This document shows, piece after piece, positions 29,712 to 43,841 of a stretch of DNA of 62,559 bases. Position numbers and translations under genes: made by a program. The notes below the pieces were generated by a model. The model saw only the letters and a program-made list of their open reading frames with translations. It did no database searches and was not told the origin of the DNA. Position 1 is the stretch's first letter. The number at the start of each line of letters is the position of its first letter. Source of the DNA: Candidatus Gastranaerophilales bacterium (GTDB lineage: Bacteria > Cyanobacteriota > Vampirovibrionia > Gastranaerophilales > Gastranaerophilaceae); assembly GCA_944324485.1 (NCBI GenBank), contig CALUWM010000011.1, positions 1 through 62,559 of the forward strand, written 5' to 3'.

Positions 29712-29723
29712 TTTTTTTATGAT

Positions 29724-29756
29724 AAAATCCTGATATACGTTATATATCAGGATTTT
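29724..29756 (+). terminator. Terminator overlapping the leader of the ATP-grasp gene
   Basis: Stem AAAATCCTGATA/TATCAGGATTTT (12 pairs) ends four bases before the next ATG at 29761, and its downstream arm contains AGGA, the only ribosome-site candidate for that gene. It could terminate the HD-GYP gene and hide that site when folded. Confidence 0.7.
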
Positions 29757-29760
29757 AATT

Positions 29761-30900
29761 ATGATTGTTTTAGAAAAACCATATGTTTCAGATTTTTTAA
29801 TTGATACTATTCAAAAAAATAATTTTTATGTTCTTGAAACACCTTTTTCAAAAGAACTTTTACCAAATAATTGCCTAATAAAAGAACAAGATGCAATTCA
29901 ATTAAAAAATGAATTGTTTTATTCAAATTCAGAAAATTCCATTGATTGGATATTAAAAAATTATCCTAAAGAAGAAATATGCAAATATATAAAATTATGC
30001 AAAAACAAAATTTTATTCAGGGAAGCCCTAAAATCAATATATCCTAATTTCTATTTTAAAAAAATTTCATTATCTGAAATTGAACAAATTGATTCATCTG
30101 AGCTTATTTTTCCTATTATCATAAAACCATCTGTGGGTTTTTTAAGTTTTGGAGTTTATCCGATTAAAAATAAGTTTGAATGGGAAAATACTATATCAAA
30201 ATTAAAGCAAGAAATTGAAAAACACAAAGGAATATTTCCCGATGAAGTTGTTAATTTTGATGAATTTATTATAGAAGAAATAATAGCAGGAGATGAATAT
30301 GCACTTGATGCCTATTTTAATGAAAATGGTGAAGCTATTATATTAAACATATTTAAACATCCGTTTTTCGATGATAATGACGTATCGGATAGAATATATT
30401 ACACTTCAAAAGAAATTATAAACAATAATCTGGATAATTTTAAAGAAATTCTTAACAAAATTGGGAAATGTTGCAATTTTAAAAACTTCCCATTTCATAT
30501 TGAATTGAGAGTTGATAAAAACTCTATTATACCAATAGAAATAAATCCTCTAAGATTTTGTGGATGGTGTATTACAGACATTGCTCATTTTGCTTGGGGA
30601 ATTAATGTTTATGAATATTATTTAAATAAACTATCACCGGATTGGTCAAAAATATTATCCAAGGCAGATAATTCATATTACTATTTTACTATGGCAGATA
30701 TTCCTTCAAATATACAAAAAGAAAAAATTAAAAATATTAATTATGAAAACTACCTAAAAAACATTAAAAATCCTATTGAAATAAGAAAAATTAATCCAAA
30801 ACAAAACCCTGTTTTTGCAATTATTTTTGCAAAAACAAATTCAATAGACGAAATAAAAAACATACTAAAACTCAACATGGAAAATTTTATTGATTTTTAA
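29761..30900 (+). CDS. ATP-grasp ligase of unknown substrate
   Basis: The 379-residue protein has ATP-grasp features: FPIIIKPSVGFLSFGV (the ATP-binding Lys and glycine-rich loop), DEFIIEEIIAGDEYALDAYF (adenine-binding strand and acidic residues), and IEINPLRFCGW (the ExN metal motif). The enzyme probably joins a carboxylate to an amine or thiol. I cannot assign a substrate. The first 110 residues form a preATP-grasp-like domain. It overlaps the convergent pseudo-ribonucleotide reductase gene by 14 bases. It is not in a visible pathway with neighbours. Confidence 0.8.
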   Translation: MIVLEKPYVSDFLIDTIQKNNFYVLETPFSKELLPNNCLIKEQDAIQLKNELFYSNSENSIDWILKNYPKEEICKYIKLCKNKILFREALKSIYPNFYFKKISLSEIEQIDSSELIFPIIIKPSVGFLSFGVYPIKNKFEWENTISKLKQEIEKHKGIFPDEVVNFDEFIIEEIIAGDEYALDAYFNENGEAIILNIFKHPFFDDNDVSDRIYYTSKEIINNNLDNFKEILNKIGKCCNFKNFPFHIELRVDKNSIIPIEINPLRFCGWCITDIAHFAWGINVYEYYLNKLSPDWSKILSKADNSYYYFTMADIPSNIQKEKIKNINYENYLKNIKNPIEIRKINPKQNPVFAIIFAKTNSIDEIKNILKLNMENFIDF

Positions 30901-32221
30901 ATACCGTAATTCCGTTAATTTTATACTCTTTTGATTTCCTAACAATAAAATCAACATCTTCTATGGTGGCATTTTTATCTAAAATAATTGTTTTTGAAAT
31001 ATTACCATCAATATGTTTTTGTGCTACTTTTAGGGTTTCCAATTCTGATAAATAATCACCTTTATTTTTCGGTTCTATTGCAGGTGAAACTTTTAAAATC
31101 CTTGATATAGTTCCGGTTGGAGAAATTGCCATCTTAAGATTAAATTTTAAAATCTGACTTTTAATAGTAAACAACATATCATCAAGAACTTTAAGAGCGT
31201 TATCACTTCCATATTGAATATTCATCTTATCTAACAAAGACTGATACCCCAAAATACCAATATATCCGTTTTTATCAGTATTAAACATTGCTTTTGATAA
31301 AATATTTGCTGCCTTGTTTAATTTATTAAAATCTATTTTTTTCTTTTCTGTATCATAAAATTTAGAAAGATTAATATGGGCTAATGTCAAACCTTCATCA
31401 GGTTTTAATGGCGCAGTTGCGCAACAATCGCAAATATAATTTGCATCGTCTGAAAATATAATTCCAGGCTCACCTTTTTTTAACATAGAATCTAAAAGGG
31501 CAGAATAAATTTCTCCGGCTTTTTTCTTTGTTCCATCTGACATAGTCAAAAATTCATCATTATCTACTTTTCTTAAAAAATCATCACTTAAAACAACAGA
31601 TAAATCAAAACACCAATCATTAAAATCAACATTATTTTTTAATCTAATAAAATCAATAATTTGAGGATGATTTACATTCAATAATGCAATACCTGCCGGA
31701 GGTCTTTTTATATCACCTTCCTTTTGTCTATATAAAAAATAAGAATTTATATCTTTAATCCTTGATAAGGAATCATCAAAATTAGAAAAATTAATACCAA
31801 TACCTTTTTCATCTTTTATATATTGTTCCAAAAGAGCCAAATGCTGTATTGTGTTTTTGTTTTTGTCTAAATTGACAGCTAGCGCACTATTTAAGCTATC
31901 AGAATTCAAAATCCCTTTATAATATGATGTAGAAAAAGAAATACATCCTTCACTTAACATATTTTTTAAAAGATTTAAATCATCAATATCAGTAAAAATT
32001 TTACTCGAAACACTTTTAAAAAAATCATCTGGCTTTTGATTATTTGGAATTATTCCTCTTTGAATCAAAGGAAAAATATTAATATCTTCAAATTGTGTTA
32101 TATCTTTTTTTAAATATAACTGAAACTCTTTCATTGTTTTAGGGGCAGAAAACATAGTATTGCCTGCCTTAAACAATATCTTATTTTTATTATTGAAATT
32201 AAAAGGAGTTACTTTTATCAT
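30887..32221 (-). CDS. Truncated, catalytically altered class II ribonucleotide reductase homologue
   Basis: This 444-residue protein is clearly related to class II (NrdJ-type) ribonucleotide reductase, which is usually 600-750 residues. Conserved parts include GIGINFSNF, RPPAGIALLNVNHPQIIDF, INLSKF, SPTGTISRILKVSPAIEP and the C-terminal NISKTIILDKNATIEDV. The catalytic loop, normally NPCGEQPL, reads DCCATAPL: the thiyl-radical Cys is kept (C267), but the Asn and Glu are Asp265 and Thr269. Both reducing cysteines are replaced (Leu114 and Leu278), and the N-terminal ATP-cone and a central stretch are missing. It begins with a KILFKAG tag. It starts two bases after scpB. Reductase activity is unlikely; an adenosylcobalamin or nucleotide-binding role is a guess. 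Confidence 0.85.
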   Translation of the reverse strand: MIKVTPFNFNNKNKILFKAGNTMFSAPKTMKEFQLYLKKDITQFEDINIFPLIQRGIIPNNQKPDDFFKSVSSKIFTDIDDLNLLKNMLSEGCISFSTSYYKGILNSDSLNSALAVNLDKNKNTIQHLALLEQYIKDEKGIGINFSNFDDSLSRIKDINSYFLYRQKEGDIKRPPAGIALLNVNHPQIIDFIRLKNNVDFNDWCFDLSVVLSDDFLRKVDNDEFLTMSDGTKKKAGEIYSALLDSMLKKGEPGIIFSDDANYICDCCATAPLKPDEGLTLAHINLSKFYDTEKKKIDFNKLNKAANILSKAMFNTDKNGYIGILGYQSLLDKMNIQYGSDNALKVLDDMLFTIKSQILKFNLKMAISPTGTISRILKVSPAIEPKNKGDYLSELETLKVAQKHIDGNISKTIILDKNATIEDVDFIVRKSKEYKINGITVFKNQ

Positions 32222-32223
32222 TT

Positions 32224-32739
32224 TTAAAGATTTTTAAGATCTTCTGTTGCATCTAATTTTTTAACAAGTGCTTTTATATCACCTTTTAATTTAAAATACT
32301 CCTGAAATTTTTTTGTTGTCCTAATATTAAAACTTCTTCCGTTTTTATCTTTTGTTTTGGAAATCAATCCTTGTTCTAAAAGTTCTGCAATATGTTCATA
32401 GGCATTAGAACGCAAATCTTTAAGCGCAGTCTGCCTTATTGGTTCTTTAAGAGCAATTACGGTTAAAGTTTTTAATACAGCAGGCTTTAATTCAACAGGA
32501 CATAATTTCTCAACTATATCCATATGCTCCGCCTTGACTTGTATTATATATCCGTCTTCATCATCTATTTCAAGCGCTCCATTTCTTGACGAATAATCAA
32601 ACATTAAGTCCAACAAAGCTTCTGTAACCTTTTCTTCTTCCAGTCCTAAAATCTCAGCGATTTCAATCGGCTGCATAGCTTTTGAAGTTATAAATAAAAC
32701 GGCTTCAACTTTTGCCTTTAAGCTCTCTATTTCCATCAT
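32224..32739 (-). CDS. scpB: Condensin accessory protein ScpB
   Basis: ScpB forms a dimer of winged-helix proteins that regulate the SMC-kleisin ring. The 171-residue protein has the typical early segment VEAVLFITSKAMQPIEIAEILGL and the second winged helix (IRQTALKDLRSNAYEHIAELLEQGLI). It overlaps scpA by four bases (ATGA) and stops two bases before the next gene, so smc, scpA, scpB and the pseudo-reductase are translationally coupled in one operon. Length is usual for the family. Confidence 0.92.
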   Translation of the reverse strand: MMEIESLKAKVEAVLFITSKAMQPIEIAEILGLEEEKVTEALLDLMFDYSSRNGALEIDDEDGYIIQVKAEHMDIVEKLCPVELKPAVLKTLTVIALKEPIRQTALKDLRSNAYEHIAELLEQGLISKTKDKNGRSFNIRTTKKFQEYFKLKGDIKALVKKLDATEDLKNL

Positions 32740-33605
32740 TTTATTTCAACCTCTTTTTCTTGTGCTTTTTGAACAAACAATTTTCCATAAAATTCTTTTT
32801 GCATTATTTCATATTCTTCTTCACGAGCCAAGAACAACAAAGCTATAAAGGCAGAACTTCTATCAAAACCCAGCAAACAAAGTTCTCTTAACTCAATATT
32901 TTCTTCATGAGACAATATTTGGGTCAGATTTTGTCTCATTCTTTCAACCACTTCTTCAACATATTCTTCATGAGCCAACTCTTTAATTTCAGCCGCTTTT
33001 AAATTTGAATAGTTCTTGACTCTTCTTTCTTTTCTATCCAGTGCATTTTTAATAGCATATTTTTTTTCTAAATCTTCATAAAATTGAATATGCCTAATTA
33101 AGTCTTTTAATGTTACGCTTCTTTTTCTATTTAAACGAACAGATGTTCTTCTTTGCAAAACTTCATCAAATGAAACTATATTATTAGTAGGAATTTGTGT
33201 TTGTTCATAATTTGCTTCAAAATTATCATCTTCAAAATAATCCAAAGGCTCAGGATTAAAATCATTAATTGAAATTCCTTGCAAAATATCAGATTTTATT
33301 TTTAAAAGAGTAGATGAAAAAAGTATTGCCTTTCCTACTGATCGCAAATTTTCCTGCTTTAGCTCCGATATTCTTTTCATATATTTATCATACAAATCAA
33401 TAATATCTATATTCCAAGGGTCAAGTTTACCCTCTTTAACAAGATCAAGAATTATCTCGATTGCATCAGTTTGTACATCTTTTTTAATCCCTGAGCGAGA
33501 AATAAATTCAGTATTAGAACCAAAATCAACGGTACCATCTAATACCTTTATTTCATCATAATTTAATTTATTATTTGTATAAAAATCACTAACAGCTTCT
33601 GACAT
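32736..33605 (-). CDS. scpA: Kleisin subunit ScpA
   Basis: ScpA is the kleisin that bridges the two SMC heads. The 289-residue protein contains the motif IILDLVKEGKLDPWNIDIIDLYDKY, characteristic of ScpA, near residues 48-72, and ends in a winged-helix region (FIALLFLAREEEYEIMQKEFYGKLFV) that binds the SMC head. An N-terminal extension of about 40 residues precedes the core. Its start overlaps the smc stop by one base (TAATG), and its end overlaps scpB by four, both indicating coupled translation. Confidence 0.92.
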   Translation of the reverse strand: MSEAVSDFYTNNKLNYDEIKVLDGTVDFGSNTEFISRSGIKKDVQTDAIEIILDLVKEGKLDPWNIDIIDLYDKYMKRISELKQENLRSVGKAILFSSTLLKIKSDILQGISINDFNPEPLDYFEDDNFEANYEQTQIPTNNIVSFDEVLQRRTSVRLNRKRSVTLKDLIRHIQFYEDLEKKYAIKNALDRKERRVKNYSNLKAAEIKELAHEEYVEEVVERMRQNLTQILSHEENIELRELCLLGFDRSSAFIALLFLAREEEYEIMQKEFYGKLFVQKAQEKEVEIK

Positions 33606-36600
33606 TATTCATCTTTCACTTTAATTCCGGAGACCTTTGTAACTCCCTTATCTTTTTGTGTAACACCTATCATCCTATCTGCACAATCAAGCATTGGTTT
33701 TCTTAATGAAATTACTACAAATTGTGCTGTTTCTGATTGTTTTTCGATAATAGATGCCAATCTTTCAACATTTGGGCCATCCAAGTGCATATCGACCTCA
33801 TCAAATGCGTAAAATGGCGATGGTAAATATTTTTGTATGGCAAAAACAAAAGCAAGAGCAGTTAGAGATTTCTCCCCACCTGACATGCCTGCAAGCTTTT
33901 GATTTCTCTTATCTCTTATATTTGCCTCAAAAGTAAGCCCCCCTTCAAAAGGATCGTTTTCATTTTCCAACACAAGGGTACCTTCCCCCTCAGAAAGCTT
34001 AGCAAAAACTTCCTTAAAGTTATTATTAATTGCCCAATAAGCATCAAGGAAAGTTTCTTTCTTTAACTTTTGATAACCATTCATACGAGATTTTATTTCA
34101 TTTTTTTCATTTTCCAAAGTTAAAACTTTTTCTTTATAAGAATTTTGACGCTCTAATGCCTCATCATATTGAGTCAATGCACGCATATTAACGGGTTCTA
34201 ATTCTTCCATTTTCTTTTGCAACTTGGAAATTTTAGAATTTATCTCATCAAGCGAAATTTCTGTTTGTTCAAGCTCCTTCGGATTAATGCCCGCATTTTC
34301 AAATTCTTTTAAAATACCCTCTAATATAGGTTCAAGTTCTCTTCTTCTGGCTTTATAGCTCTCTTCTTGTTCTAAAAGCCTTTCAATATTATCTTGAATC
34401 TTATTTTTTTCAGTTTTTGCACTCAATAATTCTTCTTGCAATTCATCTCTTTTTGTCTGAAACTCAACAAGATTTTTTCCGAGTTCTTCAATCTCTTTTT
34501 CTAATAATTCAAGTTCTTTTTTTACCTTTTCAATTTCAATTATAAATTGTTCTTTTTCCGTTTTTAAATTTTCATTATCTTTTGTTAATTTTTCAATATC
34601 GGTTTGTCTGGTTAAAATTTGACTCTGTTGAAATTTTATTTGGTTTTCATCTTTTTCAATATCATTTTCAACAGTCATTATAGATTTTTCTACCGCTTTA
34701 ATTTCTTCTTCTATATCATTTGTTTTCTCTTTGAGTTTTTTTAATTCGCCTTCATCAATGAGTTTCTCAACTGCTTCAAGTTTTTCTTGAGTAGCTTGAA
34801 GTTTATCGTTTAATTTTATGTGGCGATTTTCAAATAAATCTAATTCTTTTGAAAGTTTTTTATTTCTATCTTTTAAAATCTTTATTTCTTCTTCACCTTT
34901 TTTAATAACCTCAGAAGATTGCTCATTATTTGAAACAAGATTTTTCAATTCCATTTTTGCAGAATTTAAACTATTTAAAGAAGCAGAATGTTTTTGTCTT
35001 ATGTCATCTAATCTTCTTTCTAAATCTTTTTCTTTTTGACTTAAATTCTTAACAAGCTCTTCTGTTTCTTTTAATAATTTCTTATATTTTTCAAGTTCTT
35101 TTTCTTGGCTTTTATCAAAAAATGAAGCATTTTTCTTTTTCGCACCGCCAGTAATAAGACCGCTCTTTTCTGTAATATCACCTTCAAGGGTTACAACTCT
35201 ATATTTTCCTGCAAGTTTTTTAGCAGTAACCTCGCTTTCAACAACAACAGTTTCACCCAGGGCGAAATAAAAAGCATCGATATATTTATCATCAAAATCT
35301 ATTAAGTTAATTGCAAAATCAATAACTCCCTTTTCCTTGGGCAAAGCCATCTTCAAAGGAGCCTTTTTAATTACATCCATTGGTATAAAAGAAGCTCTGT
35401 CTCTACCTTGCGAACGCAGAACTTGAATTGCTTTATATGCTGTATCTTGATCATCAACTACTATGGAAAAAGCCCTTGCTCCCATTGCAACATTAATAGC
35501 ATCTATATACTCACTTTCAACATCTGCCAACTGAGCCAACGGCTGATGTACACCTTGGATGTGTGCCTTCATAACGGTTTCAATTCCTGAACCCATACCA
35601 ATAGATTTATAGGCATTTTTATTAGCATCCAATATTGCAATTCTTTTTTGTGCTTGCTGAATCTTGTAAAAAGAATCCTCTTTTTGTACTTTAGTCTTAT
35701 CCAGCTCCTCAAATGTCTTTGTCTGAAGAAGTTTAAAATCTTTTACTTCATTTTCTAAAGTTTCTATTTGTAAATTTAACTTATCTTTTTCACTTTCAAA
35801 TATTTTAGCTGAATTTAAAAATTTATCTATTGTTTCTTTTGTGGAATTAATTTTTTCTTCGTTGTTTTTATACTCATTTTCAAGAGGTAATTGCTCTTTT
35901 ATTAGTTGAGTTTCTTCATCTTTTAAATCTTCAATTTCTTTCCTTAATTTATTTCTGTTTTGAATATGCTCATCAGCCGATTTATTTAAACCTGTCATTT
36001 CACTTATAATCTTAGCCAGTTGAGCTTTTTTTTCTTTTAAAGTTTTGTTTAGATTTTTAAGTTCATTATTTTTTTCTTTAATAGCGGCTTTAAACTCTTC
36101 AATTTTTTGTTTTTGAACCTCTATACCATTTTTATAGCTTTCTATTGCCTTTACATTATCCAGAGTTGTTTTTTCAACTTGTGCTATTGCTGATTTTTTT
36201 CTTTCAATTTCACCTTTTTTTTCTTCTGCGGTTTTTTTTACTTCAAGTTGTTTTTCTTCTCCTTGCGCTTTAACTTTTGCGTTTATTTCATCATATTTTG
36301 TTTTTGTATCTTCAATCTTTGATTCAACTTCTTTAAGCTTTTGATTTAATTCTTTTTTGTCCTTTGTAGCAGCAAGGATATTCTGATGAACAAGCTCAAG
36401 CGAACGAACAGTATCAAAATACTTTGCACTTTGTATTTGATTTTCCAGTGCATTTTTCTCATCTTTATATTTTTTATATTTTAAGGCAACTTCACGCTCT
36501 TCTTTTAATTGTTCGATTTGATTATCTATTTCGCTCATCAAGATATTCGTGTTTGCAACTCTGTCTTCAACATCTTGAATCTGTTCGGAAGCTAAATTAA

Positions 36601-37108
36601 TTTTTCTTTCAAAATCAGCAATTCCGGCTATTTCATCAATTATTTTTCTTCTTTCAGTAGGGGAACATTTTGTAATCTCAGTTACGTCACCTTGCATCAT
36701 AACATTATAACTATTAGGAGTTATATTATATTTTTCAAGTTCTAAGTGAATTTGGGTTAATGTACAAGGTTTATCATTATAATAATAATTCGACTGGACT
36801 CCATTTTTTCCTTTTTTAATGTGTCTTTTTATTGAAAATTCATTATCAGCATTGTTTTCGTCTCCAAATGTAACTTTAACAATTGCTTCGCCACGCTTAT
36901 TATGATTGGTAATTAAATCAGCGGAACCTTGTTCTGAACGCAAAGCTCTCGCAGAAGAAAGGCCAAGTGCAAATAAAATACTATCGATTATATTACTTTT
37001 TCCTGAGCCATTAGGTCCGGATATTGCCGTAAACCCTTGAAGCAAAGGAATCGTTACTTTATTTGCAAAAGATTTAAAATTGTCTATTTCTATTTCTTTT
37101 ATATACAT
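33605..37108 (-). CDS. smc: Chromosome condensation protein SMC
   Basis: SMC dimers extrude DNA loops and help segregate chromosomes. The 1167-residue protein has Walker A at residues 31-39 (GPNGSGKSN), a long coiled coil to about 500, a hinge domain (about 505-660, with VSEYIDAINVAMGARAFSIV-like sequence), the returning coiled coil, the ABC signature (KLAGMSGGEKSLTALAF) and Walker B (PFYAFDEVDMHLD) near the C-terminus. All are intact. The gene has its own promoter (37140-37169). It heads the operon with scpA, scpB and the reductase homologue. Confidence 0.96.
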   Translation of the reverse strand: MYIKEIEIDNFKSFANKVTIPLLQGFTAISGPNGSGKSNIIDSILFALGLSSARALRSEQGSADLITNHNKRGEAIVKVTFGDENNADNEFSIKRHIKKGKNGVQSNYYYNDKPCTLTQIHLELEKYNITPNSYNVMMQGDVTEITKCSPTERRKIIDEIAGIADFERKINLASEQIQDVEDRVANTNILMSEIDNQIEQLKEEREVALKYKKYKDEKNALENQIQSAKYFDTVRSLELVHQNILAATKDKKELNQKLKEVESKIEDTKTKYDEINAKVKAQGEEKQLEVKKTAEEKKGEIERKKSAIAQVEKTTLDNVKAIESYKNGIEVQKQKIEEFKAAIKEKNNELKNLNKTLKEKKAQLAKIISEMTGLNKSADEHIQNRNKLRKEIEDLKDEETQLIKEQLPLENEYKNNEEKINSTKETIDKFLNSAKIFESEKDKLNLQIETLENEVKDFKLLQTKTFEELDKTKVQKEDSFYKIQQAQKRIAILDANKNAYKSIGMGSGIETVMKAHIQGVHQPLAQLADVESEYIDAINVAMGARAFSIVVDDQDTAYKAIQVLRSQGRDRASFIPMDVIKKAPLKMALPKEKGVIDFAINLIDFDDKYIDAFYFALGETVVVESEVTAKKLAGKYRVVTLEGDITEKSGLITGGAKKKNASFFDKSQEKELEKYKKLLKETEELVKNLSQKEKDLERRLDDIRQKHSASLNSLNSAKMELKNLVSNNEQSSEVIKKGEEEIKILKDRNKKLSKELDLFENRHIKLNDKLQATQEKLEAVEKLIDEGELKKLKEKTNDIEEEIKAVEKSIMTVENDIEKDENQIKFQQSQILTRQTDIEKLTKDNENLKTEKEQFIIEIEKVKKELELLEKEIEELGKNLVEFQTKRDELQEELLSAKTEKNKIQDNIERLLEQEESYKARRRELEPILEGILKEFENAGINPKELEQTEISLDEINSKISKLQKKMEELEPVNMRALTQYDEALERQNSYKEKVLTLENEKNEIKSRMNGYQKLKKETFLDAYWAINNNFKEVFAKLSEGEGTLVLENENDPFEGGLTFEANIRDKRNQKLAGMSGGEKSLTALAFVFAIQKYLPSPFYAFDEVDMHLDGPNVERLASIIEKQSETAQFVVISLRKPMLDCADRMIGVTQKDKGVTKVSGIKVKDE

Positions 37109-38523: not shown

Positions 38524-39423
38524 TTAACTCCTTAAGGTGTAATTACATAAATTAACTAATGCTGACTTATAAACAGTATCTTCAATTTTATCTAAAAAAT
38601 TAATTGCTGCTTCTTTGTAACTACAAACCTTTTTATTTGCCAAATCTATGCAATTTTGAAAACAATCATTTTTACAATCAAGTAAATCAATATTATTTTC
38701 CTTGCAAAAGTATAGCACAGGCAAAGTATAGTTTCCATTTTTAATATCAGACGAATTTTTATTTTGAATATTATCTATATCATTTTTAATCTGAAATGCA
38801 AGAGTATAATTTTTCAAAAAATTTTCCAAATCTATTTTTATTGCATTGTCAAAATTCTCCAAAGTAAAAAGCGATTCAAGTCCAGCAAAAAAAAGATTTC
38901 CTGTCTTATTAAAAGTTTTCTCAAGGTATTTTTTTTCATCAATTACTTTATTTAAAAATGAATTTTGTTCTATTTCGCCATCTAAAGTTTTTTGTATTTT
39001 ATTTGAAAAGATTTTTAAAATATCTAAGTTTGTCTCACTCAAAACATTTAATGCCATGCTCAAGAGCAAATCCCCCTCTAAAACGGCAAGCTTTGCACCG
39101 TATTTTTCATAAAAAGTTGGATTGCTTCTTCTAATTTTTTCATTATCTAATATATCATCATGAATCAAAGATGCACTGTGTATAAATTCAAGTGTAAGTG
39201 CAATATTGAAAACTTGACTAAAATCTTTTATTTTTAATATTTTTGCGAAAAGAAAAACAAACAAAGGTCTCAATCTTTTTGGATTTGAAAATATAAAATC
39301 ATTCAAATCTTTTTTTAAAAAATTATCATTTTTATCCAAAATCTTTTTTATTTTTTTCTCAAAAAATTCTAATTCATCTTTAACAACAAATGTAATATCT
39401 TTAATCTTTACAATTTCATTCAT
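38524..39423 (-). CDS. Polyprenyl diphosphate synthase family protein
   Basis: This 299-residue protein is a trans-prenyltransferase, which extends isoprenyl diphosphates for carriers or quinone side chains. The first aspartate-rich motif is intact (LIHDDILDNEKIRR). In the second motif, usually FQIxDDxxD, the sequence is FQIKNDIDN, so only part of the metal-binding set remains. The KRLRPL segment binds the diphosphate. It starts two bases after the aminopeptidase gene stops, so the genes are in one operon. Chain length and role cannot be told. The reduced second motif could mean lower activity or a partner subunit. Confidence 0.8.
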   Translation of the reverse strand: MNEIVKIKDITFVVKDELEFFEKKIKKILDKNDNFLKKDLNDFIFSNPKRLRPLFVFLFAKILKIKDFSQVFNIALTLEFIHSASLIHDDILDNEKIRRSNPTFYEKYGAKLAVLEGDLLLSMALNVLSETNLDILKIFSNKIQKTLDGEIEQNSFLNKVIDEKKYLEKTFNKTGNLFFAGLESLFTLENFDNAIKIDLENFLKNYTLAFQIKNDIDNIQNKNSSDIKNGNYTLPVLYFCKENNIDLLDCKNDCFQNCIDLANKKVCSYKEAAINFLDKIEDTVYKSALVNLCNYTLRS

Positions 39424-39425
39424 TT

Positions 39426-40532
39426 CTATATAATAAATTTGCCATTTTCATATATTAATTTATCGTCAGCATATATTTTGCCGTTATTTTTCATATTTTT
39501 AATCATATCCCAATGTAAACCGGACTTATTTTTACCTCCTGCTTCCGGATAACTTGATCCAAAAGCAACATGTATTGAACCGCCTATTTTTTCATCAAAT
39601 AAAATATTTCCGGTTACATTTTGTATTCTTTCATTTGTGCCTATTGCAATCTCGCCCACAAAACGAGAGCCCTCATCCATATTTAACATACTCTGAAGAA
39701 AATCATCTCCCATTTGAGCACTTGCTTCAATGACTTTACCCTCTTTTAAGGTAACACATACTTCTTTTGCACATGAACCATGATAATTTTGAGGAAAATC
39801 AAAATAAATCGTTCCTTCTGCACTATTTTCAACAGGAGAAGTAAAGATTTCACCATCGGGAAAATTCATATTTCCGGAACAAGGAACCCAAGTTCTGCCT
39901 TCTGTTGAAAATGTAACGTCTGTTTTATCCCCTACAAATCTAATTTTTGAAGTTTTATTTAAAATATCAGCTATTCTTTTTTGTTCTTTGTCTATTTCTT
40001 CCCATTTTTTAGTAGGATTATCTAAATCTAAATAACAAGAATTAATCAAAAACTCACTATATTCTTCAAGGCTCATAGAAGCTTCTTGTGCCAGAGCATT
40101 CGTAGGATAATCTGCAATTACCCAACGCATTTCATTATTTGCAGACCGTTCTAGTCTTTTTGATAATATAGGTTGCATAGCTTTTGAACGTTTTGCAAGT
40201 TTATTTGAATCTGCATTTGCCATATTTTTTACATTACTTGGAGCCCCGATAAAAATCATTACATCGGCAATTTCTACTTCTTTTTTAGACATCTCATCAA
40301 CAAATTCAAGCTGTTCATCGTTTGCATACTTTATAAATGTTTCCGCCAATTCATCCATTGATGTTCTAACAATCGGATTTGCACCATTTACAAGACAAGC
40401 ACTATAAATTTCCTTAACCAAAGGTTGAGCTTCGTAACCTCTTGCATAAATTATAACCAAATCACCTTTTGTAACCTTTACGGAATAATTTACAAGAACA
40501 TCAGCATATTTTTTAATCAACGGATTATACAT
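39426..40532 (-). CDS. M29-family (thermophilic type) aminopeptidase
   Basis: The 368-residue protein matches metallopeptidase family M29 (AmpS/AmpT/PepS type), cytoplasmic aminopeptidases that use two metal ions. Family signs are GDLVIIYARGYEAQPL near the start, the LPTNALAQEA-like region (YPTNALAQEASMSLEEY), the GEIFTSPVENSAEGTIYF segment that carries a conserved metal ligand glutamate, and SGLHWDMI near the end with a His and Asp. It follows lpxA directly, with no intervening bases. The substrate preference is unknown. Confidence 0.85.
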   Translation of the reverse strand: MYNPLIKKYADVLVNYSVKVTKGDLVIIYARGYEAQPLVKEIYSACLVNGANPIVRTSMDELAETFIKYANDEQLEFVDEMSKKEVEIADVMIFIGAPSNVKNMANADSNKLAKRSKAMQPILSKRLERSANNEMRWVIADYPTNALAQEASMSLEEYSEFLINSCYLDLDNPTKKWEEIDKEQKRIADILNKTSKIRFVGDKTDVTFSTEGRTWVPCSGNMNFPDGEIFTSPVENSAEGTIYFDFPQNYHGSCAKEVCVTLKEGKVIEASAQMGDDFLQSMLNMDEGSRFVGEIAIGTNERIQNVTGNILFDEKIGGSIHVAFGSSYPEAGGKNKSGLHWDMIKNMKNNGKIYADDKLIYENGKFII

Positions 40533-41357
40533 TTATTCATCCTCATTTTCGTCCATATGACCATGATAAGCTGCTTTAAATCTTAATGTACAGCCCCTCT
40601 TGGATGATCTTACAAAATTAACAAGATTATCTACATATTTATTTCCGCTAAATTCTTTTTCTATTAATTCAAGCGCCTGAGAAGTATTGTATTGCTCATT
40701 TCTAAGCAATCTAATTGCCTTATGAATCGCATCTCTTGATTCCTTATCAACATTTTTTCTTCTTAGCCCAATTGCATTTAAACCAATTGGTAAGCAAGGT
40801 ATACCTTCTGCCTTACAATACGGTATAATATCAGCCCTTGCAGCCGAAGCACCTGATATTATAGCCATTTCACCTATTCTTACATGCTGATGAAAAACAG
40901 ACATTCCACCAAGAAAAGCTCCAAAACCAACATGACAATGTCCACCGATTGTTGCAGCATTCGCCATAATAACATTATCTTCAAGGACACAATTATGAGC
41001 TACATGGGTATAAGCCATCAACATACAATTATTTCCAACAACTGTATTGCAACCCTCACCTGAAGCCCTATTTACTGTTGCAAATTCTCTTATCCAACAA
41101 TTATCGCCAATTATTACCCCTGTTTTTTCACCTTTATATCCTAAATCCTGAGGCTCGCCACCAATAGAAGCAAAAGGTGATATTCTGGTATTCTTACCTA
41201 TGTGCGAGTATTGTATATTAGCACTTTCACCAATCTTACAACCTTCTTCAATAACAGTGTCAGGTCCTATTATAGCATAAGCGCCAATCTCAACATCAGG
41301 TGCAATCTTAGCGCTTTTATCAATTATTGCACTTGGATGAATTTTACTGGAGTCCAT
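40533..41357 (-). CDS. lpxA: UDP-N-acetylglucosamine acyltransferase LpxA
   Basis: LpxA adds the first acyl chain to UDP-GlcNAc, the first step of lipid A synthesis. The 274-residue protein is built from hexapeptide repeats of a left-handed beta-helix (IDKSAKIAPDVEIGAYAIIGPD and onward). The active-site His region is in LMAYTHVAHNCVL, and the conserved GGMSVFHQHVRIGEMAIISG loop is present. The C-terminus is a helical domain. It follows fabZ by 13 bases. Length is close to the usual 260. Confidence 0.95.
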   Translation of the reverse strand: MDSSKIHPSAIIDKSAKIAPDVEIGAYAIIGPDTVIEEGCKIGESANIQYSHIGKNTRISPFASIGGEPQDLGYKGEKTGVIIGDNCWIREFATVNRASGEGCNTVVGNNCMLMAYTHVAHNCVLEDNVIMANAATIGGHCHVGFGAFLGGMSVFHQHVRIGEMAIISGASAARADIIPYCKAEGIPCLPIGLNAIGLRRKNVDKESRDAIHKAIRLLRNEQYNTSQALELIEKEFSGNKYVDNLVNFVRSSKRGCTLRFKAAYHGHMDENEDE

Positions 41358-41370
41358 TTTTATCCCTCTA

Positions 41371-41817
41371 TTATTTTAATGCTACTGTTAATTCAGCTTC
41401 TGTACACAATTTACCATCAACATAGGCTCTGCCTAAACATTTAGCAATAGGTCCTTTAACCTTTAAGCATTGCGTTTCCATTTCAAGCCTATCGCCAGGT
41501 CTTACTATATTTTTAAATTTTGCATTTTCAACACCGGCAAAAAGTGTTAATTTTCCTTTATATTTTTCCATTGTCATTAATATTGGAGCAGAAGTCTGAG
41601 CTAACGCTTCTATTTGTAACACCCCCGGCATTATCGGATTATTTGGAAAATGCCCTTGAAAAAAAGGTTCATTGAAAGTTACATTTTTATATCCCTTTGA
41701 ATATTCTCCCGGAACACATTCTGTTATTCTGTCAACCAATAAAAACGGATACCTATGTGGCAACATTTCAAGTATTTGACTATAATCAAGAGTAATTGGT
41801 GTAACTACTGAATCCAT
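41371..41817 (-). CDS. fabZ: 3-hydroxyacyl-ACP dehydratase FabZ
   Basis: FabZ dehydrates 3-hydroxyacyl-ACP in fatty acid elongation. The 148-residue hot-dog protein has the catalytic His in MLPHRYPFLLVDRI and the Glu in IMPGVLQIEALAQ, the family hallmark. It lies between lpxC and lpxA, the widely conserved order that links lipid A and fatty acid supply. An AAGGAGA ribosome site precedes the ATG. Confidence 0.96.
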   Translation of the reverse strand: MDSVVTPITLDYSQILEMLPHRYPFLLVDRITECVPGEYSKGYKNVTFNEPFFQGHFPNNPIMPGVLQIEALAQTSAPILMTMEKYKGKLTLFAGVENAKFKNIVRPGDRLEMETQCLKVKGPIAKCLGRAYVDGKLCTEAELTVALK

Positions 41818-41830
41818 ATTTATCTCCTTG

Positions 41831-42652
41831 TTATTTATTTAATGTCTTCTTAAGTGCCTTTGCACATTCTACATGATAAGCATGTCCTGCTTCTTTAACT
41901 AAAATATTTGCCTTTAATTTTAAAGGATTATAACCTGTCAAATACAAATCGCCAATTATATCAAGTATTTTGTGCTTTGCAGGCTCAAACTCACTTCTAA
42001 GAGAAGTTGTGTATCCGTCTTCTGTTAATCCAACAGTATTTTCTATTGTAACACCCTTAGAGTAACCTGCAGCCTGAAATCTTTCCAAATCTTTTAAATA
42101 TCCAAAAGTTCTAGCTTCAATAATTTCATTTATATTGTCTTTATTAAAATTAACCCATCTTTGTTTTAAATCAGGATGATTAAAATTGACTGAATAAGTT
42201 ATAGTTGTTTCAGTTTTAGATGGCATTATAACAATTGAAGAATTGTCTCTTTGAAAGGAAACAACGCTACTTAAAGGTTCAATTTCATCACTTTCGCCAA
42301 CATAACCTATCTTGTCAAATTCTTCAACCCAAACCTTTGAACTACCATCAAAAATAGGCATTTCAAAACCTTGAGAGCTGAAATAAACATCTAAAGCATC
42401 AATGCCTCTTATAGCACAAGCAGCCATAAAATGCTCAACCAAAGCGATTTTATGCTTTGCGCCACTTTCAACATCTGCCAAAATAACACAATGTTCAGTA
42501 GAAACAACATTTTCAACTTTTGCTTCCACCATACCATCTTCTATATAAAACCTTATGCCTTTTTTATCGGAAGGTTTAACAGTAAGTTCCACAGGGGCTG
42601 CAAACATAAGCCCTGCACCATTTAAAATTAAACTAGATTTTAGCGTCTTCAT
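41831..42652 (-). CDS. lpxC: UDP-3-O-acyl-N-acetylglucosamine deacetylase LpxC
   Basis: LpxC is the zinc deacetylase that commits the pathway to lipid A. The 273-residue protein has the zinc ligands His in VEHFMAAC and His/Asp in [13 protein letters not shown], and the hydrophobic loop around the active site. It is a little shorter than the 305 residues of the E. coli enzyme, within the family range. The start overlaps lpxD by 20 bases, and 13 bases separate its stop from the fabZ start. Conserved position [12 protein letters not shown] is present. Confidence 0.95.
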
Positions 42653-43757
42653 TTAAAAATTTCTCATAATCCTCTAATAAATGTTGATATTTTTTATACT
42701 TTTGAACCATAATTTCCGCTTCATCAAGATATTTTAACCTCTTAATGAAATCTTTTCTTAATACAGCCGGAGCACCCATTATAACAGATTTTTTAGGGAA
42801 TGATTTTGTAACACCGGCTTGAGCTAATATAATTGAATCATCGCCAATTTCAACATGGTCTTTTAAACCGGCTTGACCCGCAATTACAACTCTATCTCCA
42901 ATAGTACAACTGCCTGCAATGCCGACTTGAGATACAATCGTACAAGCATTACCTATTTTACAATTATGGCCAATCATAACAAGATTGTCTATTTTAGTTT
43001 GGCTTCCAATAGTTGTGTTTTCAATAGTTCCTCTGTCTATTGTCGTATTTGCACCGATTTCAACATCATCACCTATCACAACAGAACCTAAAGAAGGTAT
43101 TTTAAAGACTTTAACTTCAGTATTTATTTCTTTTATTGCTCCTTCTTGACGTGCTTGTTCTATATTACTCGGTGCTTCAGTAACAAAAGAAAAACCATCT
43201 GCTCCAATACTTGCACCATGATGGATTATACAGCGCGAACCAATCTGAATAAAATCTCCAATATTAACTCCAGGATGAAATAAGCAATCAGAACCGATTT
43301 TTGCCCCTTTACCTATATATACATTAGGCATAATTGCTGTATTATCACCAATTTCGACATTTCTTGAAATAACAACATTTGCTCCAATCGAAACATTTTT
43401 TCCAATTTTTGCAGTTTCATCAATAACAGCAGAAGGATGAATATTTCTTGGAGTATCCGGAGCTATATAAAAAACATTTAAGAGTTTCATAAAAGCAAGC
43501 CTTGGACGTTCAACTTCAATAGTTGAAATGCCTTCTAAATTAACTCCTAATGGAACAAGGACAGCTTTTGCCTTAGATTGAGACATATTCTCTATTTCAT
43601 CTTCATTCATAGCTAATGCCAAAGTATTTTCATTAGCTAATTTAGGCGGCGCAACATTTGTTATTGTAATATCGCTTACTTTTGTTAAGATGCCACCAAC
43701 AATTTGAGACAACTCTTCTAGGCTAAACCTTTTTTCGCCTGCATTCATTTCACCCAT
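42633..43757 (-). CDS. lpxD: UDP-3-O-acylglucosamine N-acyltransferase LpxD
   Basis: LpxD adds the second acyl chain in lipid A synthesis. The start at 43757 is chosen because AGGGAGTG lies just upstream; earlier in-frame codons would remove it. The 374-residue protein has an N-terminal uridine-binding domain (about 1-105), then left-handed beta-helix repeats (ISIG/IGDN-type) and the catalytic His in [14 protein letters not shown]. It is longer than usual (about 340), through a small insertion of ISNVEQARQEG type ([20 protein letters not shown]) and a longer C-terminal helix. The four genes lpxD, lpxC, fabZ and lpxA are one operon. Confidence 0.94.
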
Positions 43758-43841
43758 TTTCACTCCCTCTGTATCAATTGTATATTTATTGTATAACAAC
43801 AAAAGTTTTTTGCCAATTCTTTTAACAAAAATTAGCAGTTT

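Follow-up and report, generated by a model that had tools for sequence, protein, structure and literature searches.

Few enzymes are as conserved as ribonucleotide reductases (RNRs), and herpesviruses are the only source of RNR pseudoenzymes that we know of. The R1 proteins of betaherpesviruses (MCMV M45 and HCMV UL45) are homologues of the RNR large subunit that have lost catalysis and have no small subunit, and M45 in particular is a catalytically inactive homologue put to another use (PMC12282084). Our literature search, which covered an open-access library with few subscription papers, returned no description of a bacterial RNR pseudoenzyme and nothing on RNR in Gastranaerophilales; one paper joined scpB and RNR, on hydroxyurea (PMC4634966).

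Here we describe nrdJL, a gene of one Gastranaerophilales genus (gut bacteria with kinship to cyanobacteria) that encodes a putative RNR-fold pseudoenzyme of 444 aa. Like class II NrdJ of the dimeric, diphosphate type (T. maritima, PDB 1xje/3o0o), NrdJL combines a predicted barrel fold with a GxGxNFS strand B, a thiyl-Cys finger loop, a distal PTG loop and the C-terminal motifs DxxISKT and GITVF. Unlike class II NrdJ, it lacks the catalytic Asn and Glu, the reducing Cys pair, loop 1, the cofactor hairpin region, the PNSP apical loop and the Cys-rich C-terminus, and it is much shorter than the NrdJ of sister genera (about 660 aa). With class O RNR (cyanophage S-CBP4, PDB 7urg) it shares a minimal length (412 aa on average in class O) and the absence of an ATP-cone; class O, however, still has a TTP-bound loop 1, an NVCLE finger loop, the Cys pair of the active site and the hairpin that follows strand H (PMC9531940), none of which is left in NrdJL. 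Finally, whereas the betaherpesvirus R1 proteins are viral and class I derived, with M45 acting on host signalling, NrdJL is bacterial, class II-like and encoded in an smc-scpAB operon.

The window, i.e., the whole stretch of 62,559 nucleotides that was analysed, comes from a genome of 1.72 Mb (99.6% complete). On its minus strand, smc (33605..37108), scpA (32736..33605), scpB (32224..32739; 171 aa) and nrdJL (30887..32221) form a same-strand run, of which nrdJL is the final gene. The smc assignment comes from SMC ATPase motifs read from the sequence, a homologous ORF being present at 24/25 loci. As the earlier note had stated, nrdJL starts (with ATG) 2 nt past the scpB stop, and its translation contains SPTGTIS, INLSKF and GIGINFSNF, as well as CDCCATAPL, with DCCATAPL in place of NPCGEQPL; the coordinates given there were also right, and the strand, missing there, is minus. 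A convergent ATP-grasp gene on the plus strand (29761..30900) shares 14 nt with the 3' end of nrdJL.

Some features of the surroundings may be recorded here. Between an HD-domain gene and the ATP-grasp gene lies a terminator-like 15-pair stem with an AT-rich tail (29723-29757, plus strand), and upstream of the smc operon, on the same strand, there are lpxA-, lpxC- and lpxD-like genes (lipid A), a polyprenyl synthetase gene and a signal peptidase gene (38524-43802, minus strand). The 3' end of scpB, just before the nrdJL start, holds a short inverted repeat (32224-32245, minus strand; AGATTTAAAAAATCT in many orthologues), which is also coding (DLKNL) and so may mean nothing. PADLOC returned no match to defence systems, and a search for RNA elements at 28-40 kb of the window found none.

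NrdJL matches the RNR barrel family PF02867 of Pfam (E=6e-21), as do all 26 orthologues, and scores 114.9 bits against NCBIfam NrdJ_Z (TIGR02504), below the equivalog cut-off of 399.95 bits. An AlphaFold2 model built on the alignment of the 26 orthologues reached a pLDDT of 88 and a pTM of 0.84, residues 1-19 and 38-44 being unreliable. Foldseek placed T. maritima NrdJ first (E 7e-20), and VIA-align superposed the model on this enzyme with Z scores of 33.5-34.1, at 2.1-2.4 Å over 385-392 residues (25-26% identity); for the class Id enzyme 6dqx the values were Z 35.7 and 2.5 Å over 374 residues, and many class I enzymes rank after T. maritima NrdJ in the VIA-align comparison. The RNR alpha fold, a ten-stranded alpha/beta barrel with a finger loop, is thus confidently predicted, and the RNR kinship claimed in the earlier note is borne out in the model, with Z 34 to NrdJ. 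A common fold, of course, proves nothing about function.

The catalytic elements were compared by aligning the NrdJL orthologues with 32 NrdJs of the same class. Among 200 columns invariant in NrdJ, 34 are kept in NrdJL, 34 are deleted, 116 are variable and 16 have switched to another fixed residue. Where NrdJ has NPCGE, the finger loop of NrdJL reads DxC[A/G][A/T]; in the window, codons 264-267 (31421..31432, minus strand) encode C264-D265-C266-C267, where class II enzymes have T-N-P-C. In 26/26 orthologues the catalytic Asn is replaced by Asp265 and the base Glu by Ala or Thr269. The first reducing Cys position is Ala113 in every orthologue, and the second is Leu278 (23 Leu and 3 Phe). The earlier note had put Leu at both of these positions, which holds for Leu278, three Phe orthologues aside; the first position, however, aligns with Ala113 and not with Leu114. 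Since neither position is Cys in any orthologue, the conclusion that the reducing pair is lost stands. Its description of the protein as having no redox cysteines fits the reducing pair, lost along with Asn and Glu, but not the thiyl-radical Cys position, kept as C267 in 26/26. C267 and C204 are the sole Cys fixed in all orthologues, C266 occurring in just 19/26; codon 204 (31610..31612, minus strand) is Cys also in the G383 relative described below and Asn in 27/27 NrdJ. A sequencing error can be ruled out, because 25 independent orthologues show the same losses.

The losses extend to the effector, cofactor and redox elements. Loop 1, the specificity-effector site of RNR (PMC9669993), carries a 14-residue deletion. 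Relative to a sister NrdJ of 660 aa, and with deleted blocks assigned to strands by our reading of the predicted model, 16 aa appear to be missing before strand G and 56 aa before strand H. A further 61 residues are absent after the PTG loop, in the stretch after strand H holding the hairpin that binds the cofactor in class II and contacts the small subunit in class I (PMC9531940). The C-terminus is shorter by 66 aa, including the Cys-rich redox domain; it ends in GITVFKNQ and has no glycyl radical motif. The apical phosphate loop, PNSP in RNR (PMC8365446), has become [F/L]S[S/T]x, and the distal phosphate loop PTG is mostly kept (P-T-G-T-I, codons 368-372; 31106..31120, minus strand). Judged by sequence, NrdJL fails every tested defining feature of RNR classes O, I, II and III, and because the Asn, the Glu and the Cys pair are lost, we take ribonucleotide reduction to be abolished (for the enzymology, see PMC4390871).

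The metabolic context was examined as well. NrdB (PF00268) was absent from 24/24 genomes of the genus, with the positive control (G036) matching, and so were the BtuR/CobO and PduO-type adenosyltransferases; these genomes thus offer no class I radical source, and no evident one of class II. No full-length NrdJ occurs in the searched genomes of the genus, including the source genome, so that the comparison with an active NrdJ of the same genome, proposed in the earlier note, had no object. NrdD was found in 23/24 genomes tested, in the source genome as a gene separate from nrdJL, and dNTPs in the genus are presumably made by this class III enzyme. BtuR was present in 8/9 sister genomes with full-length NrdJ. 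One genome of family f1 (G039) encodes a full-length NrdJ, and neither BtuR nor a PduO-type adenosyltransferase was detected in it.

These data bear on two readings in which NrdJL would retain radical chemistry or the class II cofactor. The earlier note had suggested an adenosylcobalamin-binding sensor, in keeping with the best family match of NrdJL, the class II, B12-dependent NrdJ. However, with neither of two adenosyltransferase families, full-length NrdJ nor NrdB found in the searched genomes of the genus, and with the cofactor hairpin region deleted, adenosylcobalamin sensing is disfavoured, and we consider it very unlikely. NrdJL might also be a thiyl-radical enzyme with a new reaction, its C267 oxidised by an unrecognised activator. 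The thiyl-Cys position is fixed, and the finger loop D-C-C-A superficially resembles the double-Cys M-C-C-R of class III; but C266 is not conserved, and such an enzyme would have to work without reducing Cys, base Glu, NrdB, a glycyl-radical C-terminus or an adenosyltransferase of the two families searched, so we consider it very improbable.

NrdJL is a genus-wide gene. Orthologues with 44-64% identity occur in 26/28 available species of one Gastranaerophilales genus, and since G015 and G027, which lack the gene, branch within the genus in the smc-scpA-scpB tree, it has been lost twice. In G015, the convergent ATP-grasp gene comes immediately after scpB. Elsewhere in the family, genera encode a class I RNR or a full-length NrdJ, or lack both; the genus with class I RNR instead of NrdJ (G036:C16; L101, L229) encodes NrdA (759 aa) and NrdB. 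Short alignment-derived patterns run against 84,980 species, a search limited by those patterns, retrieved nothing but 25 loci from this genus plus three intact, distant RNRs; the same contig search with a single NrdJL protein as query gave no match. A phage gene was considered and rejected, the best phage matches being RNRs at 22-26% identity. An IMG/VR match (L163) likewise turned out to be an intact 752-aa NrdJ with NPCAET and not a viral NrdJL.

A family-profile scan of 382 genomes of the class added one further protein, intermediate in character. This is the second RNR-like protein of G383, from another genus of the family (562 aa; INTERMEDIATE; L195:2375-4063, plus strand), whose genome also encodes an intact NrdJ. 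Among the 383 family genomes searched it is the only protein of its kind, and a viral scan with it gave no match. It resembles NrdJL in having RxPAGIA, C204 and the thiyl Cys and in lacking the Asn, loop 1 and the second of the reducing Cys; unlike NrdJL, it has not lost the base Glu, the first of the reducing Cys or the part of the barrel that precedes strand H. Its gene adjoins neither scpB nor the intact NrdJ gene. In trees the two proteins form a clade (support 100/100) on a long stem, and this is the robust grouping; an origin of both proteins from the resident NrdJ of Gastranaerophilales is rejected weakly (p-AU 0.027), and long branches are involved.

The position of nrdJL is constant. 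In all 26 orthologues the start of nrdJL lies -4 to +6 nt from the scpB stop, which answers positively the question whether homologues cluster after scpB. A Shine-Dalgarno-like motif precedes nrdJL in 3/26, a rarity that fits coupled translation with scpB. Among 25 loci, some of which end at contig edges, scpB and nrdJL are linked in 25, the ATP-grasp gene is present in 17 and genes beyond it in 12-13; the way of searching does not skew this count of linked loci, because nrdJL was found by its own sequence. The ATP-grasp gene is thus a neighbour, not a conserved partner. In sister genera unrelated genes follow scpB, and the intact NrdJs examined are encoded elsewhere, which points to a probable single gain of this position, in the genus or its stem. 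The post-scpB ORFs of other genera were checked as hidden NrdJL homologues and dismissed: they are a TPR-metalloprotease, MraW, T2SS-F and others. In three other genera (L089, L092, L094) a matrixin-like metalloprotease with TPR repeats lies right after scpB, its start falling between 4 nt before and about 80 nt after the scpB stop.

Since the gene after scpB varies among sister genera, the linkage could be one lucky insertion inherited vertically. The main rival to our reading starts from here: NrdJL would be a dead RNR with a non-chromosomal job, e.g., as a protein scaffold or as a redox sensor via C204 and C267, placed after scpB for expression only. The two cysteines speak for it, both being present in the G383 relative, which is not beside scpB. 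The tight start-stop spacing in every orthologue and the persistence of the linkage while other neighbours were lost argue against it, and we rate it as somewhat unlikely. As for the tie to SMC-ScpAB proposed in the earlier note, it is supported solely as a shared operon with likely coupled translation, in 26/26, and gene order is all that suggests a role with SMC-ScpAB.

The gene is constrained but fast-evolving. In the closest pairs its dN/dS is 0.14-0.23; in a wider pair set, where the filter favours underestimated dS, the medians are 0.41 for nrdJL, 0.07 for scpB, 0.10 for scpA and 0.25 for the ATP-grasp gene. Mean identity across orthologues is 51% for NrdJL vs 87% for scpB. Because it evolves fast relative to its operon and has been lost at least twice, NrdJL is not essential. 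One might then see in it a decaying RNR remnant, heading for loss and with no important function, as the rapid evolution, the two independent losses, the large deletions relative to NrdJ and the wider-set median (with its caveat about dS) would suggest. Nevertheless, the reading frame is open in 26/26 species, the alignment holds 43 invariant columns, novel residues are fixed genus-wide and dN/dS in the closest pairs is low, which makes simple decay quite improbable.

We therefore favour, with a probability of about 0.5 for the whole, the explanation that NrdJL is a trimmed, catalytically dead RNR alpha barrel kept as an accessory co-translated with scpB and endowed with a ligand pocket. The proposal of a repurposed, non-catalytic RNR is upheld by the predicted fold, the loss of catalytic residues in 26/26, purifying selection and the fixed novel residues. 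On the explanation we favour, NrdJL would be made by coupled translation with ScpB and would be unable to reduce ribonucleotides. Its pocket would be lined on one side by the retooled finger loop (D265/C267), with the distal phosphate loop (P368-S373) also contributing, and might hold a nucleotide or similar phosphate ligand without turnover. The protein could serve SMC-ScpAB, or replication, in an accessory or regulatory capacity. Nucleotide sensing, as the earlier note had also suggested, is possible, with the distal phosphate loop mostly kept and the loop 1 effector site deleted.

In its most specific form, NrdJL would be a working SMC-ScpAB accessory whose old substrate pocket takes up a (deoxy)nucleotide and which relays nucleotide-pool or replication status to chromosome organisation. 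We put this forward tentatively and deem it unlikely as it stands; if it were true, we would know of no earlier case of an RNR used in this way. In B. subtilis, the viability of an smc mutant is partially restored by sub-lethal hydroxyurea, a dNTP depleter (PMC4634966), so a link between nucleotide supply and the chromosome is not far-fetched.

Irrespective of the actual role, the retention of NrdJL as the last gene of the smc-scpAB operon in 26/28 species suggests a new job. The bacterial NrdJL, the intermediate from a sister genus and the metabolic context make up a natural series for the dismantling and reuse of an essential enzyme, and as NrdJL is probably co-translated with ScpB, one can test whether nucleotide supply is linked to chromosome organisation.
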